From the NCBI RefSeq assembly GCF_003330845.1, contig NZ_CP026121.1:558001-622000 (forward strand): a stretch of 64,000 bases of DNA, written 5' to 3'. The notes under the pieces were generated by a model, which saw only the letters and a list, made by a program, of their open reading frames with translations, made no database searches and had not been told where the DNA came from. Below, in pieces: positions 3,546 to 34,998 of the stretch; the stretch's first letter is position 1, and the number at the start of each line of letters is the position of its first letter. Position numbers and translations under genes: made by a program. Source of the DNA: Streptomyces sp. Go-475. Its GTDB lineage: Bacteria > Actinomycetota > Actinomycetes > Streptomycetales > Streptomycetaceae.

Positions 3546-4871
3546 TTACGCTCGGACCCAGCGCTGGTTGGCGCCGGTGTGGCAGTTCCACACGATCACC
3601 GCAGCGCCGTTGGCGGTGCTGGCGCCGTCGACGTCCAGGCAGAGTCCGGTCTGGACGTTTCTGACGGTTCCGTCGGTGTTCACATTCCATTGCTGGTTCG
3701 CGCCGCCGGTGCAGTCCCAGATCCGTGCTCGGGCACCGGAGGCGGCGTTGCTCGGCACGTCCAGGCATCTGCCCATCACCCGCAGGGTCTGTCCGGTCTG
3801 GGTGAACTGCTGGTTGGTGCCGGTGTGGCAGTCCCAGATGATCATCTGGGCGCCGTTGGACGAGTTGGCACCGCTGACGTCCAGGCATCGGTCGGCGGAC
3901 TGGCTCCGCAACCGGAACGCGGTCGGGTCCGGAGGAGTCGGGTTCGGGCCAGCGCCCGTGAAGAAGCTCCAGACCTCTCCCTTGACCCAGCTCCTGGCGC
4001 CGCTCTCACAGCCGGCGCACCCGTCCACGGGGCCTTGCTGGTGACCTCCGTCGAACGCGGCCCAGACGACCGGATACCCCTCTCGGCAGCCCGAGTAGGC
4101 GGTGGTGATGTGGGTGCGGCTGCCCTGCGCGGGCTCCGGCGGGTTCTGCGGAGTGCAGCCGTTGTTCCTGACGAACCTGTCCCGCATGCCGCGACCGGCG
4201 CCGATGTTGTCGTTGATGCCGTGGATTCCCATGTACGCGAAGGGCTGGGTGCCCCCGCTGCACCCGCTGATCCCCCCGGGCGCGGCTATCGCGGCGACCG
4301 CACGGAAGACGTTCGGCCTGGCACATGCGAGGGCGTAGCTCATGGCTCCGCCGTAGCTGAACCCGAGGGCGAAGCGCTGCGTGGTGTCGACACAGAGGTC
4401 GTTGTCGATACGCCTGATCATGTCGTCGACGAAGGTCACGTCCTCGCCGCCGGAGTTGCCCCAGCCGTTGTTGAGGCCCTGCGGAGCAACGAAGATCGCG
4501 CTGTTGTTCGCCAGTCGGCGGAGTCCGTAATGGGCATAGACATCGCCGTCGCTTCCGCCGCCGGCGACCTGCCCGGCGGTGCCACCCAACCAGTGGAAGC
4601 CGAAGACCAGTCGGTATGGGCGGGTGTTGTCGTAGTTCTCAGGGATGCTCAGGATGAAGGAGCGGCTCTTACCGTTGCTCTGAATCGTGTGCGTGCCGCT
4701 CGTCAGTGTGGGGGCACGTCCGCACCCGGCGGTCCCCGCAAGGGTGGGGGTGGCCCCGGCGGTGGGCGACGTGTCGGCCGCGACGCTGACTCCTGCCCCG
4801 CCGGCCATGGCCAGAACGAGCAATGCCGCTGACACGGCTCGCCCGAACAACCATCTGTGGATCGACATCAT
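3546..4871 (-). CDS. Secreted CE1/PHB-depolymerase-like esterase with ricin domain
   Basis: The protein has 441 residues: a Sec signal peptide (1 to about 31), an alpha/beta-hydrolase domain (about 45-300) of the feruloyl/acetylxylan esterase and LpqC-type depolymerase group, and a C-terminal ricin/CBM13 domain (about 311-441) with three QxW repeats (CLDV and NQQW/NQRW). The nucleophile is probably S172 in [15 protein letters not shown] supplies the oxyanion-hole region, and FDGGHQQG probably carries the catalytic His. ATG at 4871 has a gagggag ribosome site and overlaps the TGA of the upstream GH95 gene by four bases, so translation is probably coupled. Likely role: removing acyl or feruloyl esters from a plant polysaccharide. 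Confidence 0.85.
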
Positions 4872-18892: not shown

Positions 18893-18954
18893 GTTTTCTC
18901 CTTGTGGGGGTTCCCGGGCCGAAGGGGATGACGGCAAGAGCGACTCCACCCCTG

Positions 18955-19833
18955 TCACCCGGTCAAGGGAGCGTTTTCCAGTCCACGCAGGACAGTTCGG
19001 AGGTACGACAACCCGTCACGGGCGAGGGCATCCTGCGACGGGGCGAGCGGCCGCCAGATCGAGGCCGCGGTGGCGATGGCCTCGTTCCGCGCGGTGAACG
19101 ACTCGATGCACACCGCGCCGCCGTAGCCGGCCGTGGCCAGGCCGGCGAGGAAGCGCGGCCAGTCGAAGTGGTCGGCGCCCGGGGTGCCGCGGTCGGTGCC
19201 GCTGACCTGGACGTGCTTGAGGTGCGGACCAGCCGTGACGAGCGCCTCGTAGGGGTCGGCCTCCTCGATGTTCATGTGATAGGTGTCGATCATGAGGCCG
19301 ACGTTCGCGGGCAGGCCGTCGATCAGCTCCACCGCCTGCTCGACGGTGTTGACGACGCTCGTCTCATAGCGGTTGAGGGCCTCGACTCCGATGCTCACGC
19401 CCCGCTCCCCCGCGTAGTCGGCCACTGGCCGCAGGGCGTGGCGGACGTCCGCGTAGCAGGCCGCGCGCTCAGGCGGTGACATGCGCCAGGTACGCCCCAC
19501 CGCGGCGTAGACCGGGCCGCCGACGCAGGGCGCGCCGACGGCCACCGCAGTGTCCACACAGGTTTTCAGGTACGCCACGGTGGAGGCGACGGCCTCCGGC
19601 GGGGCGTTCACGAGGTCACGTCCGGGTGAGGTGACCGCACAGACGCCGACCGCGCGCAGGCCGTACGCCGCCAGCAGGTCCCGGGTGCGGGCCGGGTCCC
19701 CGTCGCCGGGTTGCTCGATCGGCAGCTCGACCGCGTCGAAGCCGAACGCGGCGATCCGCGGCACCAGTTCGGCCAGGGCCTCGTCGTCGACCGGCGAGGC
19801 CCAGACCCACGGGTTGACACCGATGGGGTACAC
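18955..19833 (-). CDS. Sugar phosphate isomerase/epimerase family TIM-barrel protein
   Basis: The 292-residue protein is of the AP-endonuclease-2-like TIM-barrel type used by ketose 3-epimerases and by keto-glycoside-processing enzymes. Likely metal ligands are E in IGVEALNRYE, D in MIDTYHMN, H in HLKHVQVSGTDRG and E in CIESF. It has no signal peptide and acts in the cytoplasm. The start is GTG, four bases after the binding-protein stop. It lies within the furanose-type ABC operon, so it probably isomerises the imported sugar. The similarity does not settle which sugar. Confidence 0.85.
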   Translation of the reverse strand: MYPIGVNPWVWASPVDDEALAELVPRIAAFGFDAVELPIEQPGDGDPARTRDLLAAYGLRAVGVCAVTSPGRDLVNAPPEAVASTVAYLKTCVDTAVAVGAPCVGGPVYAAVGRTWRMSPPERAACYADVRHALRPVADYAGERGVSIGVEALNRYETSVVNTVEQAVELIDGLPANVGLMIDTYHMNIEEADPYEALVTAGPHLKHVQVSGTDRGTPGADHFDWPRFLAGLATAGYGGAVCIESFTARNEAIATAASIWRPLAPSQDALARDGLSYLRTVLRGLENAPLTG

Positions 19834-19837
19834 CGGG

Positions 19838-21034
19838 CTACTTCCAGCGCTTCGGGTAGCCGGGCAGGTCGGTGCAGCCGCACATCGCGTAGTGCAGCGG
19901 CGGCATGGTGGGGTCGACGTACTCGTCCAGGTTGTCCTGGGTGATGGTCGGCTGCGGCAGCTTCCACGGGTTCGGCACCCGCTCGCCGTCGAGGATCTTC
20001 AGCGCGGCGATGACCGGGGTGCGCCACTGGTAGGTCGGGTAGGTCGGGGCGATCGCCGTGAGCTTCTTCTCCTTCCACAGCTTCAGGAAGTCGAGCTGGT
20101 CCTCGCCGTTGATCGGCGGCACGGGCTTGCCGGCGTCCTCGAACGCCTCGACCGCCGCGCCCGCGACCGCCCCGGCGTCCATCCAGACGCCGTCGATCGT
20201 GCCGTACCGCTGGATGTAGTCGTTGACGATCTTCTTCGTCTTCGCCGGGTCGCCGTCGGTGAACTCGACGCCGACGACGTCGACGCCCGCCTTGTCGAAG
20301 GCGACCTTCGCCGCGGACCAGCGGGTCTCCAGCACGTCGACGCCGGGCAGGATGCGCAGCGCGAGCACCTTGCCGCCCCGCTTCATCTTCTGGGTGACGA
20401 ACTCCGCCGCGACGTGGCCGAATCCGTAGCCGCCGATGGGGTTGATGAACGTCACCGGGCAGGTCGTGTCGACGCCGCGGTCGAAGACGATGACCGGCAG
20501 GCCCTTCCGGCAGGCGGCCTCCACGGCCGGGGTGAGCGTCGCGGTGGTGTTCGGCGAGACGATGAGCGCGTGGCAGCCCTTGCCGAGCAGGTCGTTGATG
20601 TCGGCGATCTGCTTCTGGTCCTTGCCTTCGGCATCGACGTGGACGAACTCGGAGATCCGGCCGCGGTGCGTGTCGACCTCGGCCCGCATGGTCTTGAAAC
20701 CGACCTGGCGCCAGGGGTTGTTCAGCCCCGCGTTGGAGAAGCAGAGCTTGTACGGTCCGGGCTTCTTGAACTTCGCGGTGTCCACCATCTCCGGGTTGAG
20801 CGCCTGCTCCCAGGGCTTGCCGGACGGCCCGGTGGGCGCGGCGTCCAGGAGCGCGAGCTGCTCGTCGTAGTCGGCCTGCACGAAGAACTTCGACTGCTCC
20901 CCGGTGCCCGACCCGGTGTCCGATCCGGTGCTCGCGGAGGCCGAACCCGTTGCGCCGGTGGTGGGCTCGTCGGTGGAGCAGCCGGCCAGCACCAGTAAGG
21001 CGCTCACGGCCAGCACCGTCATGGAATGCCTCAC
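19838..21034 (-). CDS. Sugar-binding lipoprotein, RbsB/YtfQ type
   Basis: The 398-residue protein starts at GTG 21034 after aaggggattca. It has a lipoprotein signal with VLAGC (Cys about residue 19). The periplasmic-binding fold shows YKLCFSNAGLNNPWRQVGFK, ALIVSPNTTATLTPAV and VIVFDRGVD, closest by pattern to YtfQ, the furanose-binding protein of E. coli. The C-terminal tail is long and contains CGCTDLPGYPKRW. It belongs to the operon with two permeases and one ATPase. Binding of arabinofuranose or galactofuranose is a reasonable inference. Confidence 0.9.
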   Translation of the reverse strand: MRHSMTVLAVSALLVLAGCSTDEPTTGATGSASASTGSDTGSGTGEQSKFFVQADYDEQLALLDAAPTGPSGKPWEQALNPEMVDTAKFKKPGPYKLCFSNAGLNNPWRQVGFKTMRAEVDTHRGRISEFVHVDAEGKDQKQIADINDLLGKGCHALIVSPNTTATLTPAVEAACRKGLPVIVFDRGVDTTCPVTFINPIGGYGFGHVAAEFVTQKMKRGGKVLALRILPGVDVLETRWSAAKVAFDKAGVDVVGVEFTDGDPAKTKKIVNDYIQRYGTIDGVWMDAGAVAGAAVEAFEDAGKPVPPINGEDQLDFLKLWKEKKLTAIAPTYPTYQWRTPVIAALKILDGERVPNPWKLPQPTITQDNLDEYVDPTMPPLHYAMCGCTDLPGYPKRWK

Positions 21035-21044
21035 TGAATCCCCT

Positions 21045-22016
21045 TTATCTGGTCGGGAAACGGAAGGACGCGGCCGCCACGGCGAGCAGGATGATCGCGC
21101 CTTGGACGGTCGGTTCGAGGGCGCCGGAGACGCCGTAGAAGTTCATGAGCGTGAAGAGCGTCTCCAGGGTCAGCGCGCCCAGCATCGCGCCGACGACCGA
21201 ACCACGGCCCCCGCCCAGAGCGACACCGCCGAGGACCGCCGCGGTGATCGCGCCGAACTCGAGGCCGGCACCGGCCTGGAACGACACTCCGCTGTACCCG
21301 CCGATGAGGACCGCCGCGAGCGTGGCGGCGACTCCGCTGAGGACGAACGCCATGGTCTTGGCTCGCCACACGCGCACGCCGCTCAGCTCGGCGGTCCGCG
21401 GGTTGCCGCCGACGGCGACCAGGGTGCGGCCGAAGTCCGAACGCGCCAGCACCAGCGCCACGGCGGCCGCCGCCAACAGGACGATCAGGGCATACGGTAT
21501 CCGGCCCAGCACGGGCACGTCCTCGAACGCCGACCGACCGAGCCGCCGGAACTCCTCGGAGAGGCCGCCCTTCGGGGCACCGTCGGACCACAGGTACACG
21601 GCACCGACGAGTATCAGGAACATCCCGAGGGTCGTGATGAACGACGGCACCCGCAGCCGCGTGGTGACCAGGCCGTTGACGAGGCCGACGGCGACGCCGA
21701 ACGCCAGCAGGAGCACGACGACAGGCCAGCCGGCCGACGGATCACCGTCGATCAGCCGGGCGGCGATGACCACCTGCGCGGTGACCAGAGAGCCGACGGA
21801 CAGGTCCAGCTCGCCGGAGACGATCACGAAGTACTGGCCGGCGGCGAGCAGGACGACCGGCGCGGAGCGGCCGAGGAACGACATCAGCGACGGCGGCGAG
21901 AGGAAGTCCGGCTGGCGGGCGGTCAGCAGGACCAGCAGCACCGCCAGGATCACGAGGATCGGTGCGAGACCGCCGGAGCGGAACGTGAGGAGCCGCAGTG
22001 GGCGCGCGATCCGCAT
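21045..22016 (-). CDS. Sugar ABC transporter permease, RbsC/YjfF type
   Basis: The 323-residue polytopic protein belongs to the CUT2 permease family: SGELDLSVGSLVT, GLVTTRLRVPSFITTLGM, GRTLVAVGGNPRTAELSGV and ALGGGRGSVVGAMLGAL are family landmarks. It is the second of two tandem permease genes, separated from the other by one base. Single-permease CUT2 systems form homodimers. Two adjacent distinct permeases point to a heterodimer as in YtfT-YjfF. Confidence 0.92.
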   Translation of the reverse strand: MRIARPLRLLTFRSGGLAPILVILAVLLVLLTARQPDFLSPPSLMSFLGRSAPVVLLAAGQYFVIVSGELDLSVGSLVTAQVVIAARLIDGDPSAGWPVVVLLLAFGVAVGLVNGLVTTRLRVPSFITTLGMFLILVGAVYLWSDGAPKGGLSEEFRRLGRSAFEDVPVLGRIPYALIVLLAAAAVALVLARSDFGRTLVAVGGNPRTAELSGVRVWRAKTMAFVLSGVAATLAAVLIGGYSGVSFQAGAGLEFGAITAAVLGGVALGGGRGSVVGAMLGALTLETLFTLMNFYGVSGALEPTVQGAIILLAVAAASFRFPTR

Positions 22017-22017
22017 G

Positions 22018-22989
22018 CTATGCCGCCTTTCGCATCGCCCGGCGGGCGTAGACGGCGACGGCCGCGATGATGATCACGCCACGGATCACCTGCTTGAAGA
22101 ACACGTCGACCTCGAGCTGGTTGAAGACGGCGTCGATACTCGCCAGCAGCAGCACGCCGCCGACCGTGCCGACCACGCCGCCGCGCCCGCCGGCCAGGGC
22201 GGTGCCGCCGAGCACGACCGCGGCGATGGACTCCAGGTCGTACAGTCCCTCGGTGCCCACCCTCGGTGCGCCGGCGCCGAGCCGACTGGCGAGGTAGACC
22301 CCGGCGAGGCCGGCGCAGAGGGCGCACAGCACATGGGCGGTGACGAGGACCCGGCCGCCCCGCACGCCGGAGAGCCGGGCGACCTCCGGGTCACCGCCCA
22401 CGGCGATCAGGTGGTGGCCGAAGCGGGTGCGCGCCAGCACGAACCAGGTCGCGGCGGCGACGGCGAGCAGCAGCAGGAACGACACCGGCACCGGGCCGAC
22501 GCGCTGGTACCCCAGGCCCCGCACCAGGGCGGGTGCGGTCTTGCCGGCCGGGCCGTCGTATCCGTTGTCGAGGTATCCCTTCAGCAGCAGTCCGACGCCG
22601 ACGGTCGCGATGAAGGGGTTGATCCGCGCTGTGGTGACGAGCAGGCCGTTGACGAGGCCGATCGTGGCGCTGACGGCGAGCGTCAGGCCGATCGCCGGCA
22701 GCAGCGCACCGTCGTCGCCGGCCATGGTCTCGGCGGCGACGAGGGTGCTCAGGCTGACCACGTACGCCACGGACAGGTCCAGCGAGCCCCCGATGACGAC
22801 CAGCGTCTGGCCGACCGCGACCAGGCCCAGACCGGCGGCGACGTGCAGCAGGCTCACCGTCGTCGGCACGCTGAACAGCCGGCCGCCGTCGACCGTGACG
22901 ACGATCCAGCCGATCGCCAGGGTGAGGACCAGGGCGACGAACACACCGGGCGGGGTCCACCGGGCCGGCGGGGACAGCGCGCCGCTCAT
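22018..22989 (-). CDS. Sugar ABC transporter permease, RbsC/YtfT type
   Basis: The 323-residue CUT2 permease shows GGSLDLSVAYVVS, GLLVTTARINPFIATVGVG, GHHLIAVGGDPEVARLSGV and ALAGGRGGVVGTVGG. Its ATG overlaps the ATPase stop by ATGA, giving coupled translation and close stoichiometry. It is homologous to, but clearly diverged from, the next permease, so the duplication is old. Confidence 0.92.
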   Translation of the reverse strand: MSGALSPPARWTPPGVFVALVLTLAIGWIVVTVDGGRLFSVPTTVSLLHVAAGLGLVAVGQTLVVIGGSLDLSVAYVVSLSTLVAAETMAGDDGALLPAIGLTLAVSATIGLVNGLLVTTARINPFIATVGVGLLLKGYLDNGYDGPAGKTAPALVRGLGYQRVGPVPVSFLLLLAVAAATWFVLARTRFGHHLIAVGGDPEVARLSGVRGGRVLVTAHVLCALCAGLAGVYLASRLGAGAPRVGTEGLYDLESIAAVVLGGTALAGGRGGVVGTVGGVLLLASIDAVFNQLEVDVFFKQVIRGVIIIAAVAVYARRAMRKAA

Positions 22990-24515
22990 CCGGCCGCCTC
23001 CCGCGCGGTGCCGACCGCCAGGGCGACGACATCCTCCTCACTCGCGCCGGCGGGTAGCTCTCCGGCGATCCGGCCGTCGCGCATGACGATGATCCGGTCG
23101 CTCATACCGAGCAGTTCGGGCAGTTCGGACGAGACCATCAGCACGGCGGCGCCGTCGCGGGCCAGCCGGCGGACGAGATCGTGGATCGCCGACTTGGCGC
23201 CCACGTCGATGCCGCGGGTCGGCTCGTCGAAGAGCAGGATCCTCGGGGCGAGCGCGAGCCATCTGGCCAGCACGACCTTCTGCTGGTTGCCCCCGGACAG
23301 GAAGCGGATCTCCTGCTCCTCCCCCGCGGCGCGAAGCTCGACGGCCGCGAGCAGCTCCCGGACCCGCGCGGTACGGGCACCGCGGCCGAGCCGGCCTGGG
23401 CCGACGGCGCGGACGGCGCGGACGGCGCGGGCGGCCAACAGCGCGTTGTCGAGCACCGACTGCCCGGCGACGATCCCCTCGCCCTTGCGGTCCTCGGAGA
23501 CGTAGGCGATACCGGCCCGTATCGCGGCGCGGGGCGAGCGCAGCCGGACCGGCGCTCCGTCGACGGTCACCCGGCCGGTGCTGAACGGTGCGGCGCCGAA
23601 CAGTGCGCGGGCCAGCGCCGACCGGCCGGAGCCCTGCAGGCCGCCGACGCCGAGCACTTCGCCGGCGCGCAGCCGCAGGTCGATGTCGCGCAGCTTCCGG
23701 TTGCCTCCGCCCCGGACGGTCAGCCGCACCGGGCCCAGCTCCTGCGGATCGGCCCGGGCAGGGTAGTAGCTCGACAGCTCGCGGCCGACCATGTGATGCA
23801 CCAGCTGATCGGCGCTGGTGTCCGCGGTGTCCAAGGCGGCCACCGCCCGGCCGTCCTTGAGCACGGTGATCCGGCTGGACAGGTCGAAGACCTCCTTGAG
23901 GCGGTGCGAGACGTACAGCACGCCTATCCCGTGCTCCTGCAGCCGCCGTACGAGCGCGTAGAGCTGGTCGACTTCGTGGTCGGCCAGAGCCGCGGTGGGC
24001 TCGTCCATGATGAGCAGCCGCGCGTCGAGGGCGAGCGCCTTGACGATCTCGACCACCTGTTGTTGCGCCACGCCGAGTCGTCCCACGCGCGTGTCGGGCG
24101 GTATCGAGCCCTCCCCGATCGAGGCGAGGAGCCCCGCGGTCTGGCTGAGCATCGCCCTGCGGTCGACGAGCCCCCGGCGCAGGGGCTCACGGCCCAGACA
24201 GACGTTCTCCGCGACGGTGCGCTCGGGCAGCAGGGTCAGCTCCTGGTAGACGATGCCGATTCCGGCCTGTCGGGCCTCACGCGGGGTGCGGAACATCCGC
24301 GGTGCGCCGGCGAACTCGACCGTTCCCTCGTCAGGCTGGTGGACGCCGGACACCACCTTCATGAGCGTGGACTTGCCGGCACCGTTCTCACCCACGACCG
24401 CGTGCACCTCGCCCGGCCGGACCTGGAGGTCGACGCCGTCGAGCACTCGCACGCCGAGGAACGACTTGCCGATGCCTCGCAGAGTGAGCAGCGGCGACGG
24501 CAGCAGGCCAGACAT
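22986..24515 (-). CDS. Sugar ABC transporter ATP-binding protein, RbsA/MglA/YtfR type
   Basis: The 509-residue protein contains two ABC domains. The first is canonical: Walker A GENGAGKST at about 42, signature RLGVAQQQVVEI, Walker B LLIMDEPTAAL. The second has GLQGSGRSAL in place of a normal Walker A, signature FLSGGNQQKVVLARWL and Walker B ILLFDEPTRGID; this asymmetry is normal in CUT2 ATPases. It is the first gene of the leftward operon ATPase-permease-permease-binding protein-epimerase-beta-helix enzyme. The upstream region carries the 61-bp repeats. Confidence 0.95.
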   Translation of the reverse strand: MSGLLPSPLLTLRGIGKSFLGVRVLDGVDLQVRPGEVHAVVGENGAGKSTLMKVVSGVHQPDEGTVEFAGAPRMFRTPREARQAGIGIVYQELTLLPERTVAENVCLGREPLRRGLVDRRAMLSQTAGLLASIGEGSIPPDTRVGRLGVAQQQVVEIVKALALDARLLIMDEPTAALADHEVDQLYALVRRLQEHGIGVLYVSHRLKEVFDLSSRITVLKDGRAVAALDTADTSADQLVHHMVGRELSSYYPARADPQELGPVRLTVRGGGNRKLRDIDLRLRAGEVLGVGGLQGSGRSALARALFGAAPFSTGRVTVDGAPVRLRSPRAAIRAGIAYVSEDRKGEGIVAGQSVLDNALLAARAVRAVRAVGPGRLGRGARTARVRELLAAVELRAAGEEQEIRFLSGGNQQKVVLARWLALAPRILLFDEPTRGIDVGAKSAIHDLVRRLARDGAAVLMVSSELPELLGMSDRIIVMRDGRIAGELPAGASEEDVVALAVGTAREAAG

Positions 24516-25181
24516 CGTGGACCCTCAACATTCGCGTCGTCAGCAGGACCGAGTCGCCGATAGCTGAATCGTTCGGGTACGCCCGGCATGGAATGACAGC
24601 TCCCCTCCGGAAGCTGTCGTCCAATAGCCGCGAACTTTCGCCGGACGCGATGGCGACATCGCGGCCCCGAGGGTAAATGCCTGGATGAGTGCCTGGCAAT
24701 ACCAGCAGACATCAGCGATTGATACGCCAAAATCTGTTATCGAATCGCCCCGTCCACAGTCGCGCGCCGAACCACGACGGCTGTTGCGCAAAATGTGTTA
24801 TCGAATCGCCCCGTCCACAGTCGCGCGCCGAACCACGACGGCTGTTGCGCAAAATGTGTTATCGAATCGGCCCGGCGACGGTCGCGCGCCGAACCACAAC
24901 GATTGATGCGCAAAATGTGTTATGGAATCGGCAGTACCCGATTCATATTGACTGTTGCGATACGCCGCTGCATGCTGGCCCGGCAGACCACGGGAGACGG
25001 TCGCATCTGGTGTGACTCCCTTGCTTCCGTAGGGACTTGACTGCCCGTCACGGCGGACGGGACGACGAACTGACGGCACACGCGTGCCTACGACCGCGCT
25101 CGGGCACTCCGGCGCATCTTCAGGTGCGGCCGACGCGTGCCCGTGGTCATGCCATCGTTGCTCCGCCGAATAGGAGACGGC
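24516..25181. other. 666-bp divergent intergenic region
   Basis: The region separates the ABC importer operon (leftward) from the ThuA/PQQ gene (rightward). It contains small hairpins (around 24595-24625 and 24648-24662) and the 61-bp repeat array (about 24715-24967). Several short open frames cross the repeats, but they have no ribosome sites. It must hold the promoters of both transcription units. Confidence 0.6.
24729..24911. repeat. Three tandem 61-bp repeats plus flanking partial copies
   Basis: Copies are at 24729-24789, 24790-24850 and 24851-24911. Copies 1 and 2 differ at one base; copy 3 is diverged at about ten. A partial fourth copy starts at 24912 (aaaatgtgttatggaatcgg) and another partial flank precedes copy 1 (gattgatacgcc). 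Each junction contains ttgcgcaaaatgtgttatcg or a variant. This includes the palindrome ttgcgcaa and the half-site tgttatcga found in LacI-type operators. Confidence 0.9.
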
Positions 25182-28100
25182 ATGCGTCGCATCATCTTTG
25201 TCTTCGGGGCGATCGCGAGCGTGCTCCTGTCGCTCGTCGTCGCCCCACCGGCGTCAGCGGCGCCGGCCTTCCGAGCCCTGGTCTTCACGAAGACGGCCGG
25301 TTACCGGCACGATTCGATCCCGGCCGGCCTGACGATGTTCCGGGAGCAGGCGGCGGCCAACAACTTCGAGTTGGTCCACAGCGAGGACTCGAGCGTTTTC
25401 ACCCCGGCGAACCTCGCCACCTTCGACGTGCTCATCATGTTCCAGACCTCGGGAATGGTGTGGACCACGGCGGCCCAACGTCAGGCGGTGGAGGGCTACC
25501 TCGCCAGTGGCAAGGGCATCGTCGCGATCCACAACGCCACGGACATGGGAATCGAGAACGAGTACCCGTGGTGGGACCAGACCATCAACGGCGGCGCGCA
25601 CATGCCGGAGCACTCCCCCGGCGTGCTGGGCGGCACCGCCATCGTCGCGGACAAGAAGCACCCGTCGACGGCCGGCCTGCCGGACCGTTGGAACCGCAGC
25701 GAGGAGTGGTACAACTTCGACCGCAACCTCCGCGGCGACGTCCATGTCCTGGTCACCGCGGACGAGCGCACGTACAACCCGGGCCCCCGCGCCATGGGGC
25801 CGGACCACCCCATCTCCTGGTGCCGCAACACCGGCGGCGGCCGCGTGTGGGCCACCGGCATGGGGCACGCCAGCGCGGCCTACAGCGAGACCCATTTCCG
25901 CAACCACGTCCTCGGCGGCGTCAAGTGGGCGGCCGGCGCCGAGCCCGGCGACTGCGGCGGCACCGTGTGGAGCAACTTCGAGAAGCGCACCCTCGACGAC
26001 AACACCGCGGACCCGATGGCCCTCGCGGTCGCCCCGGACGGAAGGGTGCTCTACGTCCAGCGGGGCGGGCAGCTGAAGATCTTCAAGCCGACCACGAACA
26101 GCACCGTGACAGCCGGCACGCTCAACGTCTACACCGGCGGCGAGGACGGCCTGACCGGACTGGCGCTCGACCCCGACTTCGCCGACAACGGCTACGTGTA
26201 CCTGTATCACTCCCCGGCCGGAGTCCCGAACGACATCAACCGGGTCTCCAGGTTCAAACTCACCGGCGACACCCTGAACATGTCGAGCCAGGTGACGATC
26301 ATCGACATCCCCGCGACCCGGGACCGCACGTTCGCCGAGCCCGGGCACACGGGCGGGTACATCGAGTTCGGCCCCGACGGGAACCTCTACATCGGCACCG
26401 GGGACGACGTCCCACCGAACCTCGACTCCAACTGGCAGGGCTACGCCCCGCTGGACTGGCGGCCGGGCAAGGCCAACCTCGACGCCGCCCGCACCGCCGG
26501 CAACACCAACGACCTGCGGGGCAAGCTTCTGCGCATCCGGCCGTCGGCCGACGGCGGCTACACCATCCCGTCCGGCAACCTCTACCCGCAGGGCACGGCG
26601 CAGACCCGGCCGGAGATCTACGCGATGGGCTTCCGCAACCCGTTCCGCTTCTCGATCGACCCGGCCAACGGGTGGGTCTACCTCGCCGACTACGGCCCGG
26701 ACCGGAACCCGCCCGCGACCAACCGCGGCCCCGAAGGGCTCGTCGAGCTCAATGTCATCAAGTCCCCGGGCAACTACGGCTGGCCGTTCTGTCACGGCGA
26801 CAACCAGGCCTACGCGCCCTACAACCCGGACACCCGCGTCGTCGGCCCCAAGTTCAACTGCAACGCGCCGGTCAACAACTCGCCGAACAACACCGGCCTG
26901 ACCAGCCTCAAGCCGATCGTCGCGCCGAACATGTGGTACGGCTACGGCGTCTCACCGCAATTCCCCGAACTCGGCTCCGGCGGCTCGGCGCCGATGGGCG
27001 GACCGGTCTACCGCTACGACGCCGCGAACCCGTCCGGGACGAAGTTCCCGCCCTACTACGACGGGGTCCACTTCTTCTACGAGTGGTCGCGCCACACCGT
27101 CAAGGAGGTCCACTTCGACTCCGCGACCGCGGTCACCCGGACCAACCCCTTCATGCCCGCCGCCAAGTTCCTCAAGCCGATGGACATGGAGTTCGGGCCC
27201 GACGGCTCGCTGTACCTGCTCGAGTGGGGCACCAACTTCTTCGGTGGCAACAACGACTCGGGGCTCTACCGCATCGACTACAACCAGGGCGGGCGGTCGC
27301 CGATCGCCAAGGCCACCGGAACGCCCACCAGCGGGAACGCGCCGTTGACCGTGCGGTTCAGCAGCGCGGGGTCCACGGACCCGGATCCCGGTAACACGAT
27401 CAGCTACCACTGGACGTTCGGCGACGGCACCACGTCCACGGCGGCCAACCCGTCGCACACCTACACCGCCAACGGCAACTACACCGCCCAGCTCAAGGTC
27501 ACCGACAACACCGGCAAGACAGCCTTCGCCAACGTGCCGATCACCGTGGGCAACACCGCACCGGTCGTCACCATCACGATCCCGCCCGACGGCGGCATGC
27601 TGGACTTCGGCGACCGAGTCTCCTACAAGGTGTCCGTCTCGGACCCCGGCGGCGCGCCCGTCGACTGCGCCAAGGTCTTCGTCAACCCCGCCCTCGGCCA
27701 CGACGACCACCAGCACGAGACCACGGACTACCCGGGGTGCTCGGGCACCATCGACACGAAGCTGCTCGGCGGGCACCCCGACGGCGCCAACCTGTATTAC
27801 GTCCTCAACGCCCGCTACACCGACGACGGCGGCCCCGGCGGTGCGGCGCCGCTCACCGGCTACGCCCACACGATCCTCCAGCCCAAGCACAAGCAGGCCG
27901 AGTTCTACACGGACCAGTCGGGTGTGCAGGTCGTCGAGCAGGCCGGGGCGGAGAGCGGCAAGCGGGTCGGCAACATCTCCGACGGCGACTGGATCGCGTT
28001 CAACCCGATGAGCCTGTCGGGCATCACGAGCGTGAAGTACCGCCTGTCGTCGCCGAGCGGCGGCGGATCGATCGAACTGCGCGCCGACTCCCCGACCGGC

Positions 28101-28736
28101 ACGCCCCTGGCCACGACACCGGTGCCGAGCACCGGCGGCTGGAACAACTACCAGTCCACGTCGGCGGTGAACACCGCCGATCTTTCCGGCTCGCACCAGC
28201 TCTACCTGGTGTTCAAGGGCACCTCGAACAACTGGTTCGACCTCGACTCGCTCACCTTCGGGGGCAACGGGGTCGGCGAACCGGGCAGCGGCGACGGTGG
28301 GGGCGTGGCCGGTCGGACCTGGACGGTCGCGGCGCAGCACAGCGGCAAGTTCATGGACGTCAGCAGCGCCTCGACCGCTGACGGCGCCCAGGTCGTCCAG
28401 TGGCCGGCCACCGGCGGCAACAACCAGAAGTGGCAGGCCGTCGACGCCGGTGGCGGCGCCGTCCACCTGAAGGCAGCGCACAGCGGCAAGTGCCTCGCCG
28501 TCACGGGCGGGTCCACCACCCAGGGCGCGTTCCTGCAACAGTCCACCTGCGACAACAGCAACCCGCAGAAGTTCCTCGTCACACCGACCACCACGGTAGG
28601 CGTGTACACGGTGAAGAGCCTTCCCAGTGGCCTGTGCGTCGACGTCAACGGCGGCTCTACGGCCGACGGCGCACGGCTCCTGCAATGGAGCTGCCACGGC
28701 GGCACCAACCAACAGTGGCGGTTCACCGCCGTATAG
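25182..28736 (+). CDS. Secreted ThuA + PQQ sugar dehydrogenase + PKD + CBM6 + CBM13 protein
   Basis: The start is ATG 25182 after aggag. The protein has 1184 residues: signal peptide (1 to about 28), ThuA domain (about 30-240: FRALVFTKTAGYRHDSIPAG, MFQTSGM, GIVAIHNATDMG), glucose/sorbosone-type dehydrogenase propeller (about 256-700: YIEFGPDGNLYIGTGDD, TRPEIYAMGFRNPFR, GNYGWPFC), PKD domain (about 704-785: YHWTFGDGTTSTAANPSHTY), CBM6-like beta-sandwich (about 903-1035) and a ricin/CBM13 domain (about 1043-1184). It is probably an extracellular polysaccharide-bound oxidoreductase. The partner of the ThuA domain is unknown, but the domain recurs with keto-sugar enzymes. It is co-directional with GH54. 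Confidence 0.88.
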   Translation: MRRIIFVFGAIASVLLSLVVAPPASAAPAFRALVFTKTAGYRHDSIPAGLTMFREQAAANNFELVHSEDSSVFTPANLATFDVLIMFQTSGMVWTTAAQRQAVEGYLASGKGIVAIHNATDMGIENEYPWWDQTINGGAHMPEHSPGVLGGTAIVADKKHPSTAGLPDRWNRSEEWYNFDRNLRGDVHVLVTADERTYNPGPRAMGPDHPISWCRNTGGGRVWATGMGHASAAYSETHFRNHVLGGVKWAAGAEPGDCGGTVWSNFEKRTLDDNTADPMALAVAPDGRVLYVQRGGQLKIFKPTTNSTVTAGTLNVYTGGEDGLTGLALDPDFADNGYVYLYHSPAGVPNDINRVSRFKLTGDTLNMSSQVTIIDIPATRDRTFAEPGHTGGYIEFGPDGNLYIGTGDDVPPNLDSNWQGYAPLDWRPGKANLDAARTAGNTNDLRGKLLRIRPSADGGYTIPSGNLYPQGTAQTRPEIYAMGFRNPFRFSIDPANGWVYLADYGPDRNPPATNRGPEGLVELNVIKSPGNYGWPFCHGDNQAYAPYNPDTRVVGPKFNCNAPVNNSPNNTGLTSLKPIVAPNMWYGYGVSPQFPELGSGGSAPMGGPVYRYDAANPSGTKFPPYYDGVHFFYEWSRHTVKEVHFDSATAVTRTNPFMPAAKFLKPMDMEFGPDGSLYLLEWGTNFFGGNNDSGLYRIDYNQGGRSPIAKATGTPTSGNAPLTVRFSSAGSTDPDPGNTISYHWTFGDGTTSTAANPSHTYTANGNYTAQLKVTDNTGKTAFANVPITVGNTAPVVTITIPPDGGMLDFGDRVSYKVSVSDPGGAPVDCAKVFVNPALGHDDHQHETTDYPGCSGTIDTKLLGGHPDGANLYYVLNARYTDDGGPGGAAPLTGYAHTILQPKHKQAEFYTDQSGVQVVEQAGAESGKRVGNISDGDWIAFNPMSLSGITSVKYRLSSPSGGGSIELRADSPTGTPLATTPVPSTGGWNNYQSTSAVNTADLSGSHQLYLVFKGTSNNWFDLDSLTFGGNGVGEPGSGDGGGVAGRTWTVAAQHSGKFMDVSSASTADGAQVVQWPATGGNNQKWQAVDAGGGAVHLKAAHSGKCLAVTGGSTTQGAFLQQSTCDNSNPQKFLVTPTTTVGVYTVKSLPSGLCVDVNGGSTADGARLLQWSCHGGTNQQWRFTAV

Positions 28737-28747
28737 CCCGTCCGGAC

Positions 28748-28781
28748 GGGATGCCCGGCGCGGTCGCGCGCCGGGCATCCC
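28748..28781 (+). terminator. Perfect 15-bp hairpin after the ThuA/PQQ gene
   Basis: The arms gggatgcccggcgcg (28748-28762) and cgcgccgggcatccc (28767-28781) pair exactly around a gtcg loop. The element starts 12 bp after the stop and lies 30 bp before the GH54 ATG. It can terminate or attenuate transcription into GH54, or stabilise the upstream mRNA. Confidence 0.7.
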
Positions 28782-28802
28782 TCACACCCTACGAACAGGT
28801 GA

Positions 28803-30299
<1,497 letters not shown>

Positions 30300-30360
30300 G
30301 CCGCTGCCCGCACCGAAACGCGGCACAGCCTGACGTCAGCCACTCCCGGCCAGAGAACCC

Positions 30361-30399
30361 GGAAGGGCCACCGCCCAGCAGTGGGCAGGTGGCCCTTCC
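30361..30399. terminator. Bidirectional terminator between GH54 and the ThuA/DUF1080 gene
   Basis: A 17-bp stem (left arm 30361-30377, right arm 30382-30399 with one bulged base at 30387) has a gcag loop. It lies between convergent genes, 61 bp after one stop and 16 bp from the other. Confidence 0.75.
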
Positions 30400-30415
30400 A
30401 GCGTGCCGCGTCAGC

Positions 30416-32128
30416 TCACGGCAGGGTCCATTTCTGGTTGGCTCCGCCGTGGCAGGTCCACAGGTGCACGAGGGTGCCGTCGGACGAGCTGGCGCCCGAC
30501 ACGTCCAGGCACTTGCCCGCCTGCGGGTTCCGCAGCGACCCGTCCGAGGACGCCTGCCAGTTCTGGTTGGCGCCACCGTTGCAGGACCACAGCTGGACTT
30601 TCGCCCCGTCCGCCGTACTGTTGCCGCTGACGTCCAGGCACTTGCCCAACGCCTTGACCGTCGACCCCGGCGTCACCGTCCACTGCTGCCCCGCCGAGCC
30701 CGTGCACGACGAGATCTGCACCGCCGTACCGTCCGCCGAGGCGCCGTCACGGACATCCAGACACTTGCCCGCGAGCCCAACGACCGGACCCACGCCGGGT
30801 GTGGGTGGTGGGGTGCCGCCCAGCTCCTTGATCCGGACGTTGCGGAACGACACGTCGTCCCCCGTGCCGTGGTTCTGGATGCCGACGTGGCCGGCAAGCG
30901 AGCGGGCGGGGTCGGTGTTGGTGAAGTCATTGACCTTCACGCCGTTGAGCCAGACCTGGAGCCGCTCGCCCTCCACCAGCAACTCGAAGGTGTTCCACTC
31001 GCCCGGTGGGTTGAGCGCCGCGTCCCGGGCGGCCGTGTCCGGGGCCTTGACGGCGTAGATCGAGCCGGTCGTGCGGTCAGGCGCGTCGGTGGCGTCGATC
31101 TGGACCTCGTAGCCGTTGTTCAGTGCCGACTGCGGGTCGCTCGACGGTGGGAAGCCCACGATCACGCCGGAGTTGTCGTCGCCGGGCATCTTCCAGTCCA
31201 GCTTGAGCGAGTAGTTGGTGAACTGCCGGGCGCTGTACCAGAGCATGCCCATGCCGCCGTGCGAGGCGAGGGTGGCGTCCGCGTTGGTGAAGCCGCCCGG
31301 GCCGGCCTGCGACCAGCCGGTGGTCGAGCCGTTGTAGAGGCTCGTGTAGCCGGTCTCGGGCCGGCAGTCGGCCTTGGTCCGGCCTGCCGCGTACCGGATG
31401 CCGCCGAGCAGGTGTGCCCGGAACGCCGGCTCGGCGTACGACGCCTGGCTGTGCCCGCCGCCGGTGTAGAAGGACCGGCCCCCCGAGTAGGTCTTGCACC
31501 AGGTGTGCGGGTGGTCGGCGCCCATCGAGCCGCCCGAGTACGACGACTCGTCCAGCGTGGTGAGCACGCGCGCGGTGGTACGGGGGTTGGTCCGGAAGTT
31601 GTACCACTCGTCGGTGCGGGTCCAGGTCTGCGGCAGGTGGGCGGTCGCCGCGTGCGCCCGCCCCTCCACCTTGACGTTGGCCCGCTGGATGGCGGGGTGC
31701 GAGGCGAAATAGGCGCCGACCAGCTCACCGTAGAACGGCCAGTTGTACTCCGTGTCCGCGGCCGAGTGGACGCCGACGAAGCCGCCGCCGGAGCCGATGT
31801 ACGACTGGAACGCCGACTGCTGGGCGTCGTTCAGGACGTCGCCGGTGGTGTTGAGGAAGATCACCGCCTCGTAACGGCTCAGGTTGCCGGCGGTGAAGTG
31901 GTTGCCGTCCTCCGTGGCCGTCACCGTGAAACTGTTCGCCGCTCCGAGGTCGCGGATGGCCTGGATCCCTGCCGGGATCGAGTCGTGCCGGAAACCGGCC
32001 GTCTTGGAGAACACGAGGACGTCGTAGGCCGTGTCCGCGGCACTGACGGGGCCGGGCTGCCCGAGGAGGGCCAGGGCGGCGAGTGTCGCGGCCGCCCCAC
32101 CAAGCAGCATTCGGGGTTGTCTGCGCAT
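30416..32128 (-). CDS. Secreted ThuA + DUF1080 (3-keto-glycoside hydrolase-like) + CBM13 protein
   Basis: The start is ATG 32128. The 570-residue protein has a signal peptide (1 to about 32), a ThuA domain (about 37-250: YDVLVFSKTAGFRHDSIPAG, GSGGGFVGVHSAADTE), a DUF1080 concanavalin-like domain (about 258-430: SLYNGSTTGWSQAGPGGF, NYSLKLDWKMPGDDNSGVIV, GYEVQIDATDAPDRTTGSIY) and a ricin/CBM13 domain (about 445-570). DUF1080 proteins are described as 3-keto-disaccharide hydrolases. The gene follows the PQQ-type dehydrogenase gene by 29 bp, so oxidation and cleavage functions would be co-produced outside the cell. The ThuA domain is paralogous to that of the 1184-residue protein. Confidence 0.88.
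   Translation of the reverse strand: MRRQPRMLLGGAAATLAALALLGQPGPVSAADTAYDVLVFSKTAGFRHDSIPAGIQAIRDLGAANSFTVTATEDGNHFTAGNLSRYEAVIFLNTTGDVLNDAQQSAFQSYIGSGGGFVGVHSAADTEYNWPFYGELVGAYFASHPAIQRANVKVEGRAHAATAHLPQTWTRTDEWYNFRTNPRTTARVLTTLDESSYSGGSMGADHPHTWCKTYSGGRSFYTGGGHSQASYAEPAFRAHLLGGIRYAAGRTKADCRPETGYTSLYNGSTTGWSQAGPGGFTNADATLASHGGMGMLWYSARQFTNYSLKLDWKMPGDDNSGVIVGFPPSSDPQSALNNGYEVQIDATDAPDRTTGSIYAVKAPDTAARDAALNPPGEWNTFELLVEGERLQVWLNGVKVNDFTNTDPARSLAGHVGIQNHGTGDDVSFRNVRIKELGGTPPPTPGVGPVVGLAGKCLDVRDGASADGTAVQISSCTGSAGQQWTVTPGSTVKALGKCLDVSGNSTADGAKVQLWSCNGGANQNWQASSDGSLRNPQAGKCLDVSGASSSDGTLVHLWTCHGGANQKWTLP
30421..30802 (-). repeat. CBM13 module repeat B, copy 1 (382 bp)
   Basis: Direct repeat of 32163-32544. 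About six bases differ and there are no gaps. It encodes the lectin tail of the ThuA/DUF1080 protein. Confidence 0.9.
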
Positions 32129-32157
32129 GTCCGTCGCTCTCTTCTCGGTGACAGAAA

Positions 32158-34998
32158 TCAGGGCAGGGTCCATTTCTGGTTGGCTCCGCCGTGGCAGGTC
32201 CACAGGTGCACGAGGGTGCCGTCGGACGAGCTGGCGCCCGACACGTCCAGGCACTTGCCCGCCCGCGGGTTCCGCAGCGACCCGTCCGAGGACGCCTGCC
32301 AGTTCTGGTTGGCGCCACCGTTGCAGGACCACAGCTGGACTTTCGCCCCGTCCGCCGTACTGTTGCCGCTGACGTCCAGGCACTTGCCCAACGCCTTGAC
32401 CGTCGACCCCGGCGTCACCGTCCACCGCTGCCCCACCGCGCCCGTGCACGACGAGATCTGCACCGCCGTACCGTCCGCCGAGCCGCCGTCACGGACATCC
32501 AGACACTTGCCCGCGAGCCCCACGACCGGACCCACGCCGGGTGTCGCGCCACCGCCGGGATTGAAGGTGAACGCGTCGACGTCGAAGAGGAATCCGGAGC
32601 CGCCGGCGAAGGTCAGGTAGAGCGTGGTGGTGCCTGCCGGTGCACCGGAGATCGAGCCGCCCACGGTGGTGAAGTTCGTCCACGAGCCGGTGACCGGGAC
32701 GGAGGCGGAGCCGAGGACGGTGCCGGTCGGCGAGCCGGCCCGGACCTGCAACGTGCCGCCCGCGCCGGCTGACGCCACCCGGGCGCTGAACGACGTGGCG
32801 TTGCTCAGCTTGTACGGCTCGAATGCGATCCAGTCGCCGTTCTCGATGTCACCGACGGACTTGCCGCCCTCGGCTGTCGACTTGTCGTAGGTGGTGATGC
32901 CGGACGATGTCTTGTAGTGCTCGGCCTGCCGGTGCTTCGGCTGCAGGATGTGCTGCGTGTGCGTGGTGAGCCCGGCTTTGTCGGTGTACTCGGCGTCGAA
33001 GACCCCGAAGATGTTCGCCGCGTCGTCGTGCTCGCCGTCGACCGGGATGGTGATCGTGCCGGAACAGCCGGTCTTCGAGGTGATCGGGTGGCCGTGGCTG
33101 TCGTGACCGACGAGGTACGTCAGCTTGACCTTGGCGCAGTCGACCGTGCCGTCCTCCGGATCCGTCACGGTGATGCTGTACGGCACGGTGTCGCCGAAGG
33201 CGAAGATCTCCCCCGCGGCGGGGCTGTTGATGGTCACGGTCGGGGCGGTGTTGCCGACGGTGATCCGCACGTCGGCGGTGCCGGTGGCGCCCTGCGGGTC
33301 GCGCACGGTCAGCCTGGCCGTGTAGTCGCCGTTCGTGTCGTAGGTCTTCGTCGGGTTGGCGGCGGTGGAGCTGGTGCCGTCACCGAAGTTCCACGCATAG
33401 GTCAGTGCCCCGCCCTCGGGGTCGGACGAGCCGGCCGAGGAGAAGGTCACGGTCAGCGGTGCCGTGCCGGAGGTCCGGTTGGCGCCGGCCACCGCCGTGG
33501 GCGCCCGGTTGCCGGCGCCGACGTGGTCGAAGCGGTACAGGGCGGAGTTCTGGTCGCCCTGGTAATACCCGGTGCCGTAGTCCAGCACGTAGTAGGAGCC
33601 GTCCGGGCCGAACGCCGAGTCGATCACCTGCTTGCCGGTCCAGGGGAAGCTGTCGATGGTCCCCGGCGTGCCGTCGGCGTTGAGGTGGATCGGCTTGATC
33701 CAGCCGCGGCCGAACTCCGTGGCGAAGAACTGCCCGTCGAACGACTGCGGGAACTTCGTGGGCGAGCTGAGGTCGGGGTCGTACCGGTACACCGGGCCCG
33801 CCATGGGCGACTCCGAGCCGCTGCCGAACGCCGGCGGGCTGCCGGCCTCGCCGCCGTAGCGGATCCAGGCGGCCTTGGCGGGGGGCAGTGTGCTCAAGCC
33901 GGTGTTGCGGAACGAGTTGTTCGTCGGCCCGCCCGAGCAGTTGTACTTCGCGCCTGCCGTGTTGGTGGCGAAGTCCCACTCCGCGTACGTCTCGGAGCTC
34001 GTGTTCGTGCCGGTGCAGTACGGCCAGCCGTAGAAGCCGGGGCCCGTGACGCGGTTGAACTCGACCTGGCCCTGCGGTCCGCGGGCCGAGGTGGCGCCGG
34101 CGTCGGGGCCGTAGTCGCCGACGTAGACGATGCCGGTGGCCTTGTCCACGCTCATCCGGAAGGGGTTGCGCAGGCCCATCGCGTAGATCTCCGGCCGGGT
34201 CCTGGCCGTGCCGGGCGGGAACAGGTTGCCTGCCGGGATCGAGTACGACCCGTTCTCGTTCACCTTGATCCGTAAGATCTTGCCGCGCAGGTCGTTGGTG
34301 TTGGCGGCGGTGCGCTGCGCGTCGAACGCCGGGTTGCGGTTGGTCCGTTCGTCGAGCGGCGAATATCCGGCGGACTCGAACGGGTTGGTGTCGTCGCCCG
34401 TGGACAGGTACAGGTTGCCTGCCGCGTCGAAGTCGATGTCCCCGCCGGCGTGGCAGCAGATGCCTCGGTCGGCCGGCACGTCGAGGATGTCCACTCTGCT
34501 GGACTGGTTGAGCGTGAAGTCGGCGTTGAGCCTGAACCGGGACAGCCGGTTGACCCCCTGCCACGCCGACCAGTTGGTGCCGGTGGTGGGTGCGTCGCCT
34601 CCTGGCGTGGACAGCGGCGGGGCGTAGTAGAGGTAGATGTGGCGGTTGGTGGCGAAACCCGGGTCGATGCCGATGCCTTGCAGGCCGTCCTCGTCGTGCG
34701 CGTACACGGGGATGCTGCCGATCACGGTGGTGGTGCCGCTGGCGTCCGTGCGGCGCACGGTCCCGTTGCGAGCGGTGTGCAGCACCGACCGGTCGGCGAG
34801 TACGGCCAGCGACATCGGCTCACCGACTTCCGCGACCCCGCGGGCCAGTTGGACCTGCTGGAAGTCGGCGGGATTGATCGGGTGCGCCGAGGCCGGGGGC
34901 GCGCTGGACAAGGTCGCGACGAGAGCGGCCGCGACCAGGAGCAGAGCCGAACCGATGGCCGGCCAACACGCGGGAGCCCGCATGATTTTCATGAACAT
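32158..34998 (-). CDS. Secreted PQQ-type sugar dehydrogenase + PKD + CBM6 + CBM13 protein
   Basis: The 946-residue protein has a signal peptide (1 to about 38) and a glucose/sorbosone dehydrogenase propeller (about 45-495: LQGIGIDPGFATNRHIYLYY, GGDIDFDAAGNLYLSTGDD, TRPEIYAMGLRNPFRMSVD, GFYGWPYC). These are followed by PKD (about 500-585: YAWNFGDGTSSTAANPTKTY), CBM6-like (about 688-815) and CBM13 (about 819-946) domains. The order and linkers match the central and C-terminal part of the 25182-28736 product, so the two are paralogues. This one lacks the ThuA domain, which is supplied by the next gene. The ATG follows aggaagggg at a slightly long spacing. Confidence 0.88.
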   Translation of the reverse strand: MFMKIMRAPACWPAIGSALLLVAAALVATLSSAPPASAHPINPADFQQVQLARGVAEVGEPMSLAVLADRSVLHTARNGTVRRTDASGTTTVIGSIPVYAHDEDGLQGIGIDPGFATNRHIYLYYAPPLSTPGGDAPTTGTNWSAWQGVNRLSRFRLNADFTLNQSSRVDILDVPADRGICCHAGGDIDFDAAGNLYLSTGDDTNPFESAGYSPLDERTNRNPAFDAQRTAANTNDLRGKILRIKVNENGSYSIPAGNLFPPGTARTRPEIYAMGLRNPFRMSVDKATGIVYVGDYGPDAGATSARGPQGQVEFNRVTGPGFYGWPYCTGTNTSSETYAEWDFATNTAGAKYNCSGGPTNNSFRNTGLSTLPPAKAAWIRYGGEAGSPPAFGSGSESPMAGPVYRYDPDLSSPTKFPQSFDGQFFATEFGRGWIKPIHLNADGTPGTIDSFPWTGKQVIDSAFGPDGSYYVLDYGTGYYQGDQNSALYRFDHVGAGNRAPTAVAGANRTSGTAPLTVTFSSAGSSDPEGGALTYAWNFGDGTSSTAANPTKTYDTNGDYTARLTVRDPQGATGTADVRITVGNTAPTVTINSPAAGEIFAFGDTVPYSITVTDPEDGTVDCAKVKLTYLVGHDSHGHPITSKTGCSGTITIPVDGEHDDAANIFGVFDAEYTDKAGLTTHTQHILQPKHRQAEHYKTSSGITTYDKSTAEGGKSVGDIENGDWIAFEPYKLSNATSFSARVASAGAGGTLQVRAGSPTGTVLGSASVPVTGSWTNFTTVGGSISGAPAGTTTLYLTFAGGSGFLFDVDAFTFNPGGGATPGVGPVVGLAGKCLDVRDGGSADGTAVQISSCTGAVGQRWTVTPGSTVKALGKCLDVSGNSTADGAKVQLWSCNGGANQNWQASSDGSLRNPRAGKCLDVSGASSSDGTLVHLWTCHGGANQKWTLP
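32163..32544 (-). repeat. CBM13 module repeat B, copy 2 (382 bp)
   Basis: Direct repeat of 30421-30802, in the lectin tail of the PQQ-type dehydrogenase. The distance between the two copies is 1742 bp. Confidence 0.9.

Follow-up and report, generated by a model that had tools for sequence, protein, structure and literature searches.

How an actinomycete might oxidise and then cleave a glycan outside the cell is the question raised by four adjacent genes of Streptomyces sp. Go-475, here called g1 to g4, which lie at 25182-34998 of the window. By the window we mean the whole stretch of 64,000 nucleotides that was analysed (NZ_CP026121.1, positions 558,001 to 622,000), part of a genome that was searched as a single contig of 8.57 Mb. 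The first-pass annotation had described three of the four as genes for secreted proteins that combine ThuA, sugar-dehydrogenase and DUF1080 domains and end in carbohydrate-binding modules of family 13 (CBM13), and the Pfam matches of g1, g3 and g4 confirm the coordinates, the domains and the CBM13 ends. We regard it as an even call that these genes form a secreted, substrate-bound two-step deglycosylation set, in which extracellular oxidation would be followed by cleavage by DUF1080. The basis is at the level of sequence (gene linkage, a separate kind of propeller, conserved and replaced residues, a domain swap and matched CBM13 tails), and from it we infer every chemical step.

The first gene, g1 (25182-28736, + strand), encodes 1184 residues arranged as ThuA, GSDH-like propeller, PKD, an immunoglobulin-like (Ig-like) domain with four His residues, CBM6 and CBM13. 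Its ThuA domain (25272-25931, + strand) matches PF06283 with 207.7 bits (cut-off 33.4), its propeller (26001-27341, + strand) matches GSDH (PF07995) with 122.1 bits (cut-off 25) and has Pro-Gly, not Cys-Cys, before the catalytic His, and its CBM6 scores 109.0. The same series from the propeller onwards makes up g4 (32158-34998, - strand, 946 residues), with 104.7 bits for GSDH and 116.6 for CBM6. In the g4 propeller (33514-34881, - strand), Cys-Cys-His183, Arg277 and Asn278 are kept, and the Arg pair that anchors pyrroloquinoline quinone (PQQ) is replaced. Both proteins also matched PKD and a ricin-type lectin, which we take to be CBM13. Following g4 after 29 bp, g3 (30416-32128, - strand, 570 residues; the ATG before the signal peptide was picked by eye in a frame that begins at 32449) encodes ThuA (31388-32020, - strand, 274.9 bits), DUF1080 (30827-31351, - strand) and a final ricin-type lectin. 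Its DUF1080 domain matches PF06439 with 140.1 bits (cut-off 26.8) over the entire profile (1-187 of 187), and E341, Q343, N379 and R429 are invariant among 38 aligned sequences. The g4-g3 pair faces g1 and g2, and all four proteins have apparent signal peptides, judged by eye.

The association of the three activities goes well beyond this locus. We drew 59 genomes from the class and called a DUF1080 match strong above 100 bits: 20 genomes have a match and 12 a strong one. In 12 genomes picked for strong DUF1080, and counting as near anything within 6 kb, a GSDH match is near 32 of the 42 strong domains (0.93 expected from gene numbers) and ThuA near 26 (0.70 expected), while the seven weak matches have neither nearby. 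The genome of Go-475 has three strong and three weak DUF1080 matches, and all three strong loci (the window and two sister loci, L018 and L019) also have GSDH and ThuA. At L018, a single frame of 1276 residues reads propeller-PKD-CBM6-ThuA-DUF1080, i.e., g4 plus g3 minus the CBM13 tails, and stands behind ABC importer and Gfo/Idh/MocA genes; at L019, a ThuA-propeller gene adjoins one for cupredoxin-DUF1080. These counts and fusions bear out the earlier proposal that the three activities form a unit. This architecture is a common one among Actinobacteria and not peculiar to this strain, because strong DUF1080 occurs in 12 of the 59 genomes and the whole trio in 65 of the best 80 loci, and the expectation that it would be unusual in an actinomycete does not hold. 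Those 80 loci, all actinobacterial by name, are the best by propeller similarity among at least 585 confirmed relatives; scored with profiles built from proteins of this genome, they contain ThuA in 73 cases, an ABC ATPase in 40, Gfo/Idh in 22, a GH141-like protein in 8 and GH54 in 6 (GH, glycoside hydrolase). Tandem double DUF1080 after the propeller is a variant read at L114 (G046) and apparently present also at G057:C385 and G033:C134. In one genome (G056, locus L141), the pqqE/pqqC genes, accompanied by a metallo-hydrolase gene, lie beside the gene of an eight-blade PQQ dehydrogenase, and a ThuA match stands between the two; this is one case tying ThuA to quinoprotein genes.

Relatives of g4 number at least 7807 among 8000 scored, and many of those listed are named "PQQ-dependent sugar dehydrogenase", "carbohydrate-binding protein" or "ThuA domain". 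The nearest match among them is from Streptomyces europaeiscabiei (96% identity over the propeller). We know of no tested function for proteins of this type, and our literature search returned no paper joining ThuA with DUF1080, PQQ-dependent sugar dehydrogenase, sorbosone dehydrogenase or 3-ketoglycoside. The protein SCAB_42951, a "Glucose / Sorbosone dehydrogenase" that may be of either propeller class, was among the ten most abundant proteins secreted by S. scabiei with suberin (PMC4098958). The available text on SirexAA-E xylan proteomics (PMC12772271) does not mention PQQ, glucose dehydrogenase or PKD.

The propellers of g1 and g4 belong to a kind of their own. Their GSDH matches end at positions 227 (g1) and 232 (g4) of 332, short of the whole profile. 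Across the 12 genomes, 77 GSDH matches likewise end by position 245, 21 span the profile and 13 are fragments. The short-match kind has ThuA within 6 kb in 55 of 77 cases and strong DUF1080 in 33, the canonical whole-profile kind has either of them in 0 of 21, and the fragments are near ThuA in 5 of 13 cases and near DUF1080 in none. In a tree of 56 rows, the 35 of the g1/g4 kind are set apart by a branch with 100/100 support, with a program warning that long branches meet, including sGDH (soluble glucose dehydrogenase) and the branch leading to this kind. We aligned 110 of these propellers (106 from fetched loci and 4 from this genome) with 20 of the 21 canonical ones and sGDH, whose numbering we use. 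We assume for Arg228, Asn229, Gly247-Pro248 and Arg406 the roles that they have in sGDH, which fit the AA12 residues named in print. Among the 110, His144, Arg228 and Asn229 are kept in all, Gly247 in 106 and Pro248 in 109, and Gln231 is lost. Two Cys stand directly before the catalytic His in 105 and are both absent in the other 5, which would fit a vicinal disulphide next to the active site; all 110 have a second Cys pair as well. In sGDH, PQQ is bound by Lys377 and Arg408, and the catalytic residue is His144 (PMC6881789, available text). Lys377 was dropped as a marker of the PQQ site: it is found in 0 of 110 (with an Arg one place later in 102), and this loss is uninformative because the canonical controls keep it in just 2 of 20 (Arg in 12 of 20).

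Behind the propellers, g1 and g4 share about 115 residues between PKD and CBM6 that match no Pfam family above its cut-off; the nearest approach for g4 is Big_7 (23.9, cut-off 24.1). This Ig-like domain (27540-27899, + strand, in g1, where it reads GHDDHQH ... C ... GGH; 32923-33261, - strand, in g4) is unannotated and new here. In g4 it carries H632, H635, H637, H657, C621 and C645. Among 106 aligned copies, the first three His are present in all, H657 in 102 and each Cys in 105; in three copies the loop before HxH is longer. The 12 whole genomes gave 63 matches to the domain, 60 in frame after a propeller of the g4 kind and 3 after a GSDH fragment, and none (0/63) anywhere but behind GSDH propellers. 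We also found 98 stand-alone matches of 68-210 residues, many with pieces of PKD or CBM6, and these look like fragments of proteins of this same type. Three stand-alone copies have a precomputed match to DUF4625 (PF15418), to which the L018 domain is a weak match (E 0.034).

What stands in this place in more distant relatives suggests a function. A plasmid search led to a protein of Runella slithyformis (Bacteroidota; WP_013921610) with propeller, PKD, cytochrome c and CBM6, in which His144, Arg228 and Asn229 are kept, Arg406 is His and Arg408 is Val, and the cytochrome resembles class I cytochromes c of known structure (2d0s, E 4.7e-18). Among the best 120 relatives listed for its propeller, whose named members we take to be Bacteroidota, all have CxxCH after the propeller and none HxxHxH. 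All 120 keep the catalytic His, Arg and Asn, while 74 have Cys-Cys-His and 64 have ThuA (by its own profile). They score 450.8-565.3 bits with a profile of the g4 kind, compared with 41.1-99.5 for the 20 canonical propellers and sGDH. Conversely, of 103 actinobacterial proteins with the His domain, 100 have HxxHxH and three the longer loop, and CxxCH occurs in 0 of 103 in a scan that began 200 residues ahead of the domain and ran through the rest of the protein; the His form is also found in a Paenibacillus protein. When the profiles were compared (hhalign), the stretch preceding the haem aligned with columns 1-49 of the His domain (probability 98.7%, E 3.8e-16); the haem itself falls between column 49 and column 85, at the position of the His residues. 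The simplest reading is that this loop would carry an electron acceptor, haem c in Gram-negatives and a putative metal site in the secreted Gram-positive proteins. This suggests a redox enzyme in which haem was replaced by a metal site, perhaps of copper, and, in the four-His site, a new kind of wire for electrons.

A blue-copper type of domain appears at a sister locus. The L019 propeller is without the His domain, and its partner DUF1080 protein has a cupredoxin with the H-C-H-M signature (21.0 bits in Pfam, just below the cut-off of 21.2); a profile made from this protein found the signature in 4 of 4 Streptomyces genomes, L019 included. A GSDH protein from a haloarchaeon, closer to the canonical kind, carries a fused plastocyanin. 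A redox function of the propeller is likely, because its relatives carry the haem c motif and the sister locus a blue-copper domain.

The CBM13 tails tie the partners together in pairs. The g4 tail (32158-32457, - strand) is 98% identical in DNA to that of g3 (30416-30715). Those of g2 (28812-30299, + strand; CBM13 at 28938-29294, + strand) and of a gene for a GH141-like protein with a CBM13 tail (16523-18958, - strand; CBM13 at 16535-16891) are 97-99% identical, and the two sets are about 58% alike. We compared the 33 loci (32 from the best 80, plus the window) in which exactly one gene of the propeller-CBM13 type accompanies exactly one of the ThuA-DUF1080-CBM13 type. In 22 of them, the two tails resemble each other more than either resembles its best counterpart elsewhere, with medians of 0.89 within and 0.67 between loci. 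Five Nonomuraea/Microbispora loci share one CBM13 type (81-96%), and a Catellatospora locus has two types, like the window. These identities point to gene conversion that may keep teams on one target, the teams of the window being g3 with g4 and g2 with the GH141-like protein. The CBM13 modules of the second team form a 357-nt inverted repeat of 99% identity, 12 kb apart on opposite strands, which could promote inversion.

Put together, these elements would give the following scheme. The CBM6 and the matched CBM13 modules would keep g4 and g3 attached to one and the same glycan, where the propeller of g4 (and of g1) would oxidise a ring hydroxyl of a sugar with His183, Arg277 and Asn278 (in g4) as its presumptive catalytic core. 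Its cofactor site would be unusual, with PQQ held differently or another cofactor in its place. Electrons would leave through the four-His site, in the place of cytochrome c and perhaps by way of copper. The DUF1080 domain of g3 would then cleave the keto-glycoside by elimination or hydrolysis, as its family suggests: BT2157 is a 3-keto-glycoside hydrolase, and the same was proposed for CCNA_01705 from Caulobacter genetics (PMC9007349, available text). A ribose-type importer would take the sugar up, and a Gfo/Idh/MocA enzyme (at the sister locus) or a ketose 3-epimerase (in the window) could return it to metabolism. A broader proposal is more tentative, and we would not expect it to hold in full: that the four-His domain is an undescribed electron-transfer module, probably of copper, replacing cytochrome c in secreted sugar dehydrogenases of Gram-positives, and that ThuA-propeller-DUF1080 sets are a widespread extracellular route of oxidation and elimination, separate from hydrolases, lytic polysaccharide monooxygenases and the intracellular keto-glycoside pathway.

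Several observations weigh against this scheme, and each has to be set against the explanation that it would favour. Arg408 is kept in 0 of the 110 propellers (Met in 95, Ile in 10, His in 5) and Arg406 in 5; the canonical controls have Arg406 in 18 of 20 and Arg408 in 15 of 20, two having neither. No match to the pqqE or pqqC models is over cut-off in this genome, and they are over it in 1 of the 12. Because of these two results, the label "PQQ dehydrogenase" given by the first-pass annotation is doubtful; we rejected it at face value as unproven after the residue test. The loss of PQQ-coordinating residues is not complete, as it would have to be to refute that annotation on its own terms, since His144, Arg228, Asn229, Gly247 and Pro248 remain. 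The propeller clade could instead be something other than a PQQ enzyme, keeping the fold and the catalytic His and using another cofactor, or working without redox chemistry as a lyase, a hydrolase or a module that binds sugar. We find this rather unlikely, with real points in its favour: the Arg pair is also replaced in the Runella-type branch (Arg406 kept in 2 of 120, Arg408 in 0), the GSDH matches of all 77 stop early, pqqE and pqqC are below cut-off in 11 of 12 genomes, and the g1 and g4 propellers score 66.2 and 44.2 bits with the PQQ model TIGR03606, far under its cut-off of 434.55. The model of PVC-type haem-binding propellers, TIGR02604, gave 28.9 bits for g1 (cut-off 122.2) and no listed match for g4. 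However, the haem c motif in all of the best 120 Runella-type relatives points to electron transfer, even if a redox cofactor other than PQQ would fit it too. The loss of the Arg pair is also compatible with PQQ, because fungal AA12 enzymes are without Lys377 and have Arg408 replaced, yet hold PQQ by other residues, and bacteria without PQQ synthesis of their own can acquire it from their surroundings (PMC6881789, available text).

The electron path of the scheme is open to objections of its own. The four-His domain is missing from 17 of the 77 propellers (60 have it), six fused relatives from other genera have neither this domain nor a blue-copper one, and its last 34 columns, although they align in the right order with the stretch that follows the haem, give a weak match when taken by themselves (probability 0.9%, E 0.06). 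Secreted Ig-like domains can carry structural metals, and the four-His site might be a zinc or calcium site of that sort, having nothing to do with electrons, given that its role in electron transfer is deduced from position. This is a serious alternative, if on the unlikely side, as it would leave without explanation that the same loop carries cytochrome c in relatives, that the two motifs exclude each other in the proteins examined (CxxCH in 0 of 103, HxxHxH in 0 of 120), and that the domain follows GSDH propellers in 63 of 63 cases in the 12 genomes. Other observations bear on the cleavage step and on the purpose of the set. Ten of the 42 strong DUF1080 domains have no GSDH match within 6 kb, some of these misses being at contig ends; a Paenibacillus ThuA-propeller-His gene (L151) lies within an apparent exopolysaccharide-synthesis cluster, so that such sets may not be purely catabolic; and THTE_1561 is a DUF1080 protein with endo-xanthanase/lichenase activity (PMC9007349, available text). 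The locus might then serve ordinary degradation of plant polysaccharides, with DUF1080 as a plain glycan hydrolase targeted by CBM13 and with propeller and ThuA as accessories, in an island that is indeed rich in hydrolases (GH54, GH95, GH5-type and GH141-like), each with a CBM13 match. We hold this to be improbable, since DUF1080 is tightly linked to and fused with propeller and ThuA, is near the g1/g4 kind in 33 of 77 cases but near canonical GSDH in 0 of 21, and is fused to a blue-copper domain at L019.

We confirmed that GH54, an ABC importer and an epimerase-like TIM barrel adjoin it, as first described. In g2, the ricin-type lectin is followed by an arabinofuranosidase B catalytic domain (461.6 bits; PF09206, which we take to be GH54 alpha-L-arabinofuranosidase). 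Divergent from g1 and to its west runs the operon of a ribose-type ABC importer, with ATPase (22986-24515), two permeases (22018-22989 and 21045-22016) and binding protein (19838-21034), all on the - strand. On the same side lie the AP_endonuc_2 TIM barrel (18955-19833, - strand) and the gene of the GH141-like protein, which over 34 residues matches the insertion domain of GH141 (40.4 bits, cut-off 27). The nearest solved relatives of the TIM barrel are D-tagatose/ketose 3-epimerases (7erm, E 2.3e-47); the match to a 3-keto-D-glucoside 4-epimerase (6wn6, E 4.2e-9) is much poorer, and a role as 3-keto-sugar eliminase is not favoured, given these nearest structures. Farther west are GH95 (4868-7789), a GH5-type protein, an MR_MLE enzyme and a second importer; like the GH54 and GH141-like proteins, those of GH95 and GH5 type have a ricin-type lectin match. 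The Runella haem-propeller gene also has a GH95 gene about 3.5 kb away, with a recombinase gene between (L150). No Gfo/Idh/MocA reductase was found among the 31 window frames run against Pfam, which reach to 46.5 kb. Downstream of the L018 fusion (L018:12759-18934) are myo-inositol-1-phosphate-synthase-like, UbiA and AP_endonuc_2 genes, which we take to resemble an Ebo-type cluster.

Between the importer and g1 (24728-24930), direct repeats spaced at 61 bp contain AAAATGTGTTATCGAATCG four times (up to 1 mismatch), a sequence found nowhere else in the genome at up to 2 mismatches; possibly these are operator sites. Our scans found no Rfam families, tRNAs or sigma-70 promoters, and terminator-like sites were in no excess over shuffled sequence. 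The window copy of the cluster may have been acquired horizontally, because the g1 and g4 propellers group among Micromonosporaceae and the L018 fusion among Streptomyces. The G+C content is 0.68-0.72 for positions 1-36000 of the window and 0.73-0.75 for 36001-64000.

Actinobacteria are leading degraders of plant matter, and g4-type proteins are numerous. The findings also caution that a large family may carry a mistaken PQQ annotation. A propeller wired to haem c in Bacteroidota and putatively to four His in Gram-positives, together with DUF1080, amounts to a testable scheme of oxidative deglycosylation outside the cell, with the prospect of a new metal domain and of tools for biomass conversion.

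Among the closest known systems, sGDH (1c9u, 8re0) and aldose sugar dehydrogenase (Asd; 2ism, 3a9g, 2g8s, 3das) share with the g1/g4 kind the GSDH propeller family and His144, Arg228 and Asn229. The g1/g4 kind differs from sGDH and Asd in being without Arg406, Arg408 and Gln231, in the Cys-Cys before the His, in its separate side of the tree, and in being multidomain, with CBMs, ThuA and DUF1080. The Bacteroidota ThuA-propeller-cytochrome c-CBM6 proteins are alike in the kind of propeller, the domain order and the first half of the Ig scaffold, but have cytochrome c inserted in the loop where the Gram-positive members have the His site. The thu operon of rhizobia, which we take to comprise ThuA, ThuB and an ABC importer, resembles L018 in its ThuA, sugar importer and Gfo/Idh enzyme; here, however, ThuA is secreted and fused to catalytic domains.

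Two further systems are close in organisation. The fungal AA12 pyranose dehydrogenase CcPDH is also secreted, combines a propeller with a CBM and with a cytochrome b as its electron-transfer domain, and likewise has a diverged PQQ site without Lys377, but it keeps a C-terminal Arg621 shared with the bacterial enzymes and uses haem b (PMC6881789, available text). In the g1/g4 kind, by contrast, other residues stand at both C-terminal Arg positions, and the four-His domain is the partner. The keto-glycoside pathway (BT2157; LacABC with CCNA_01705 in Caulobacter) also has DUF1080 beside genes for a sugar dehydrogenase, an importer, an epimerase and a reductase (PMC9007349, available text). The oxidant of the present set would be not LacABC but a secreted propeller with CBMs, acting outside a Gram-positive cell.

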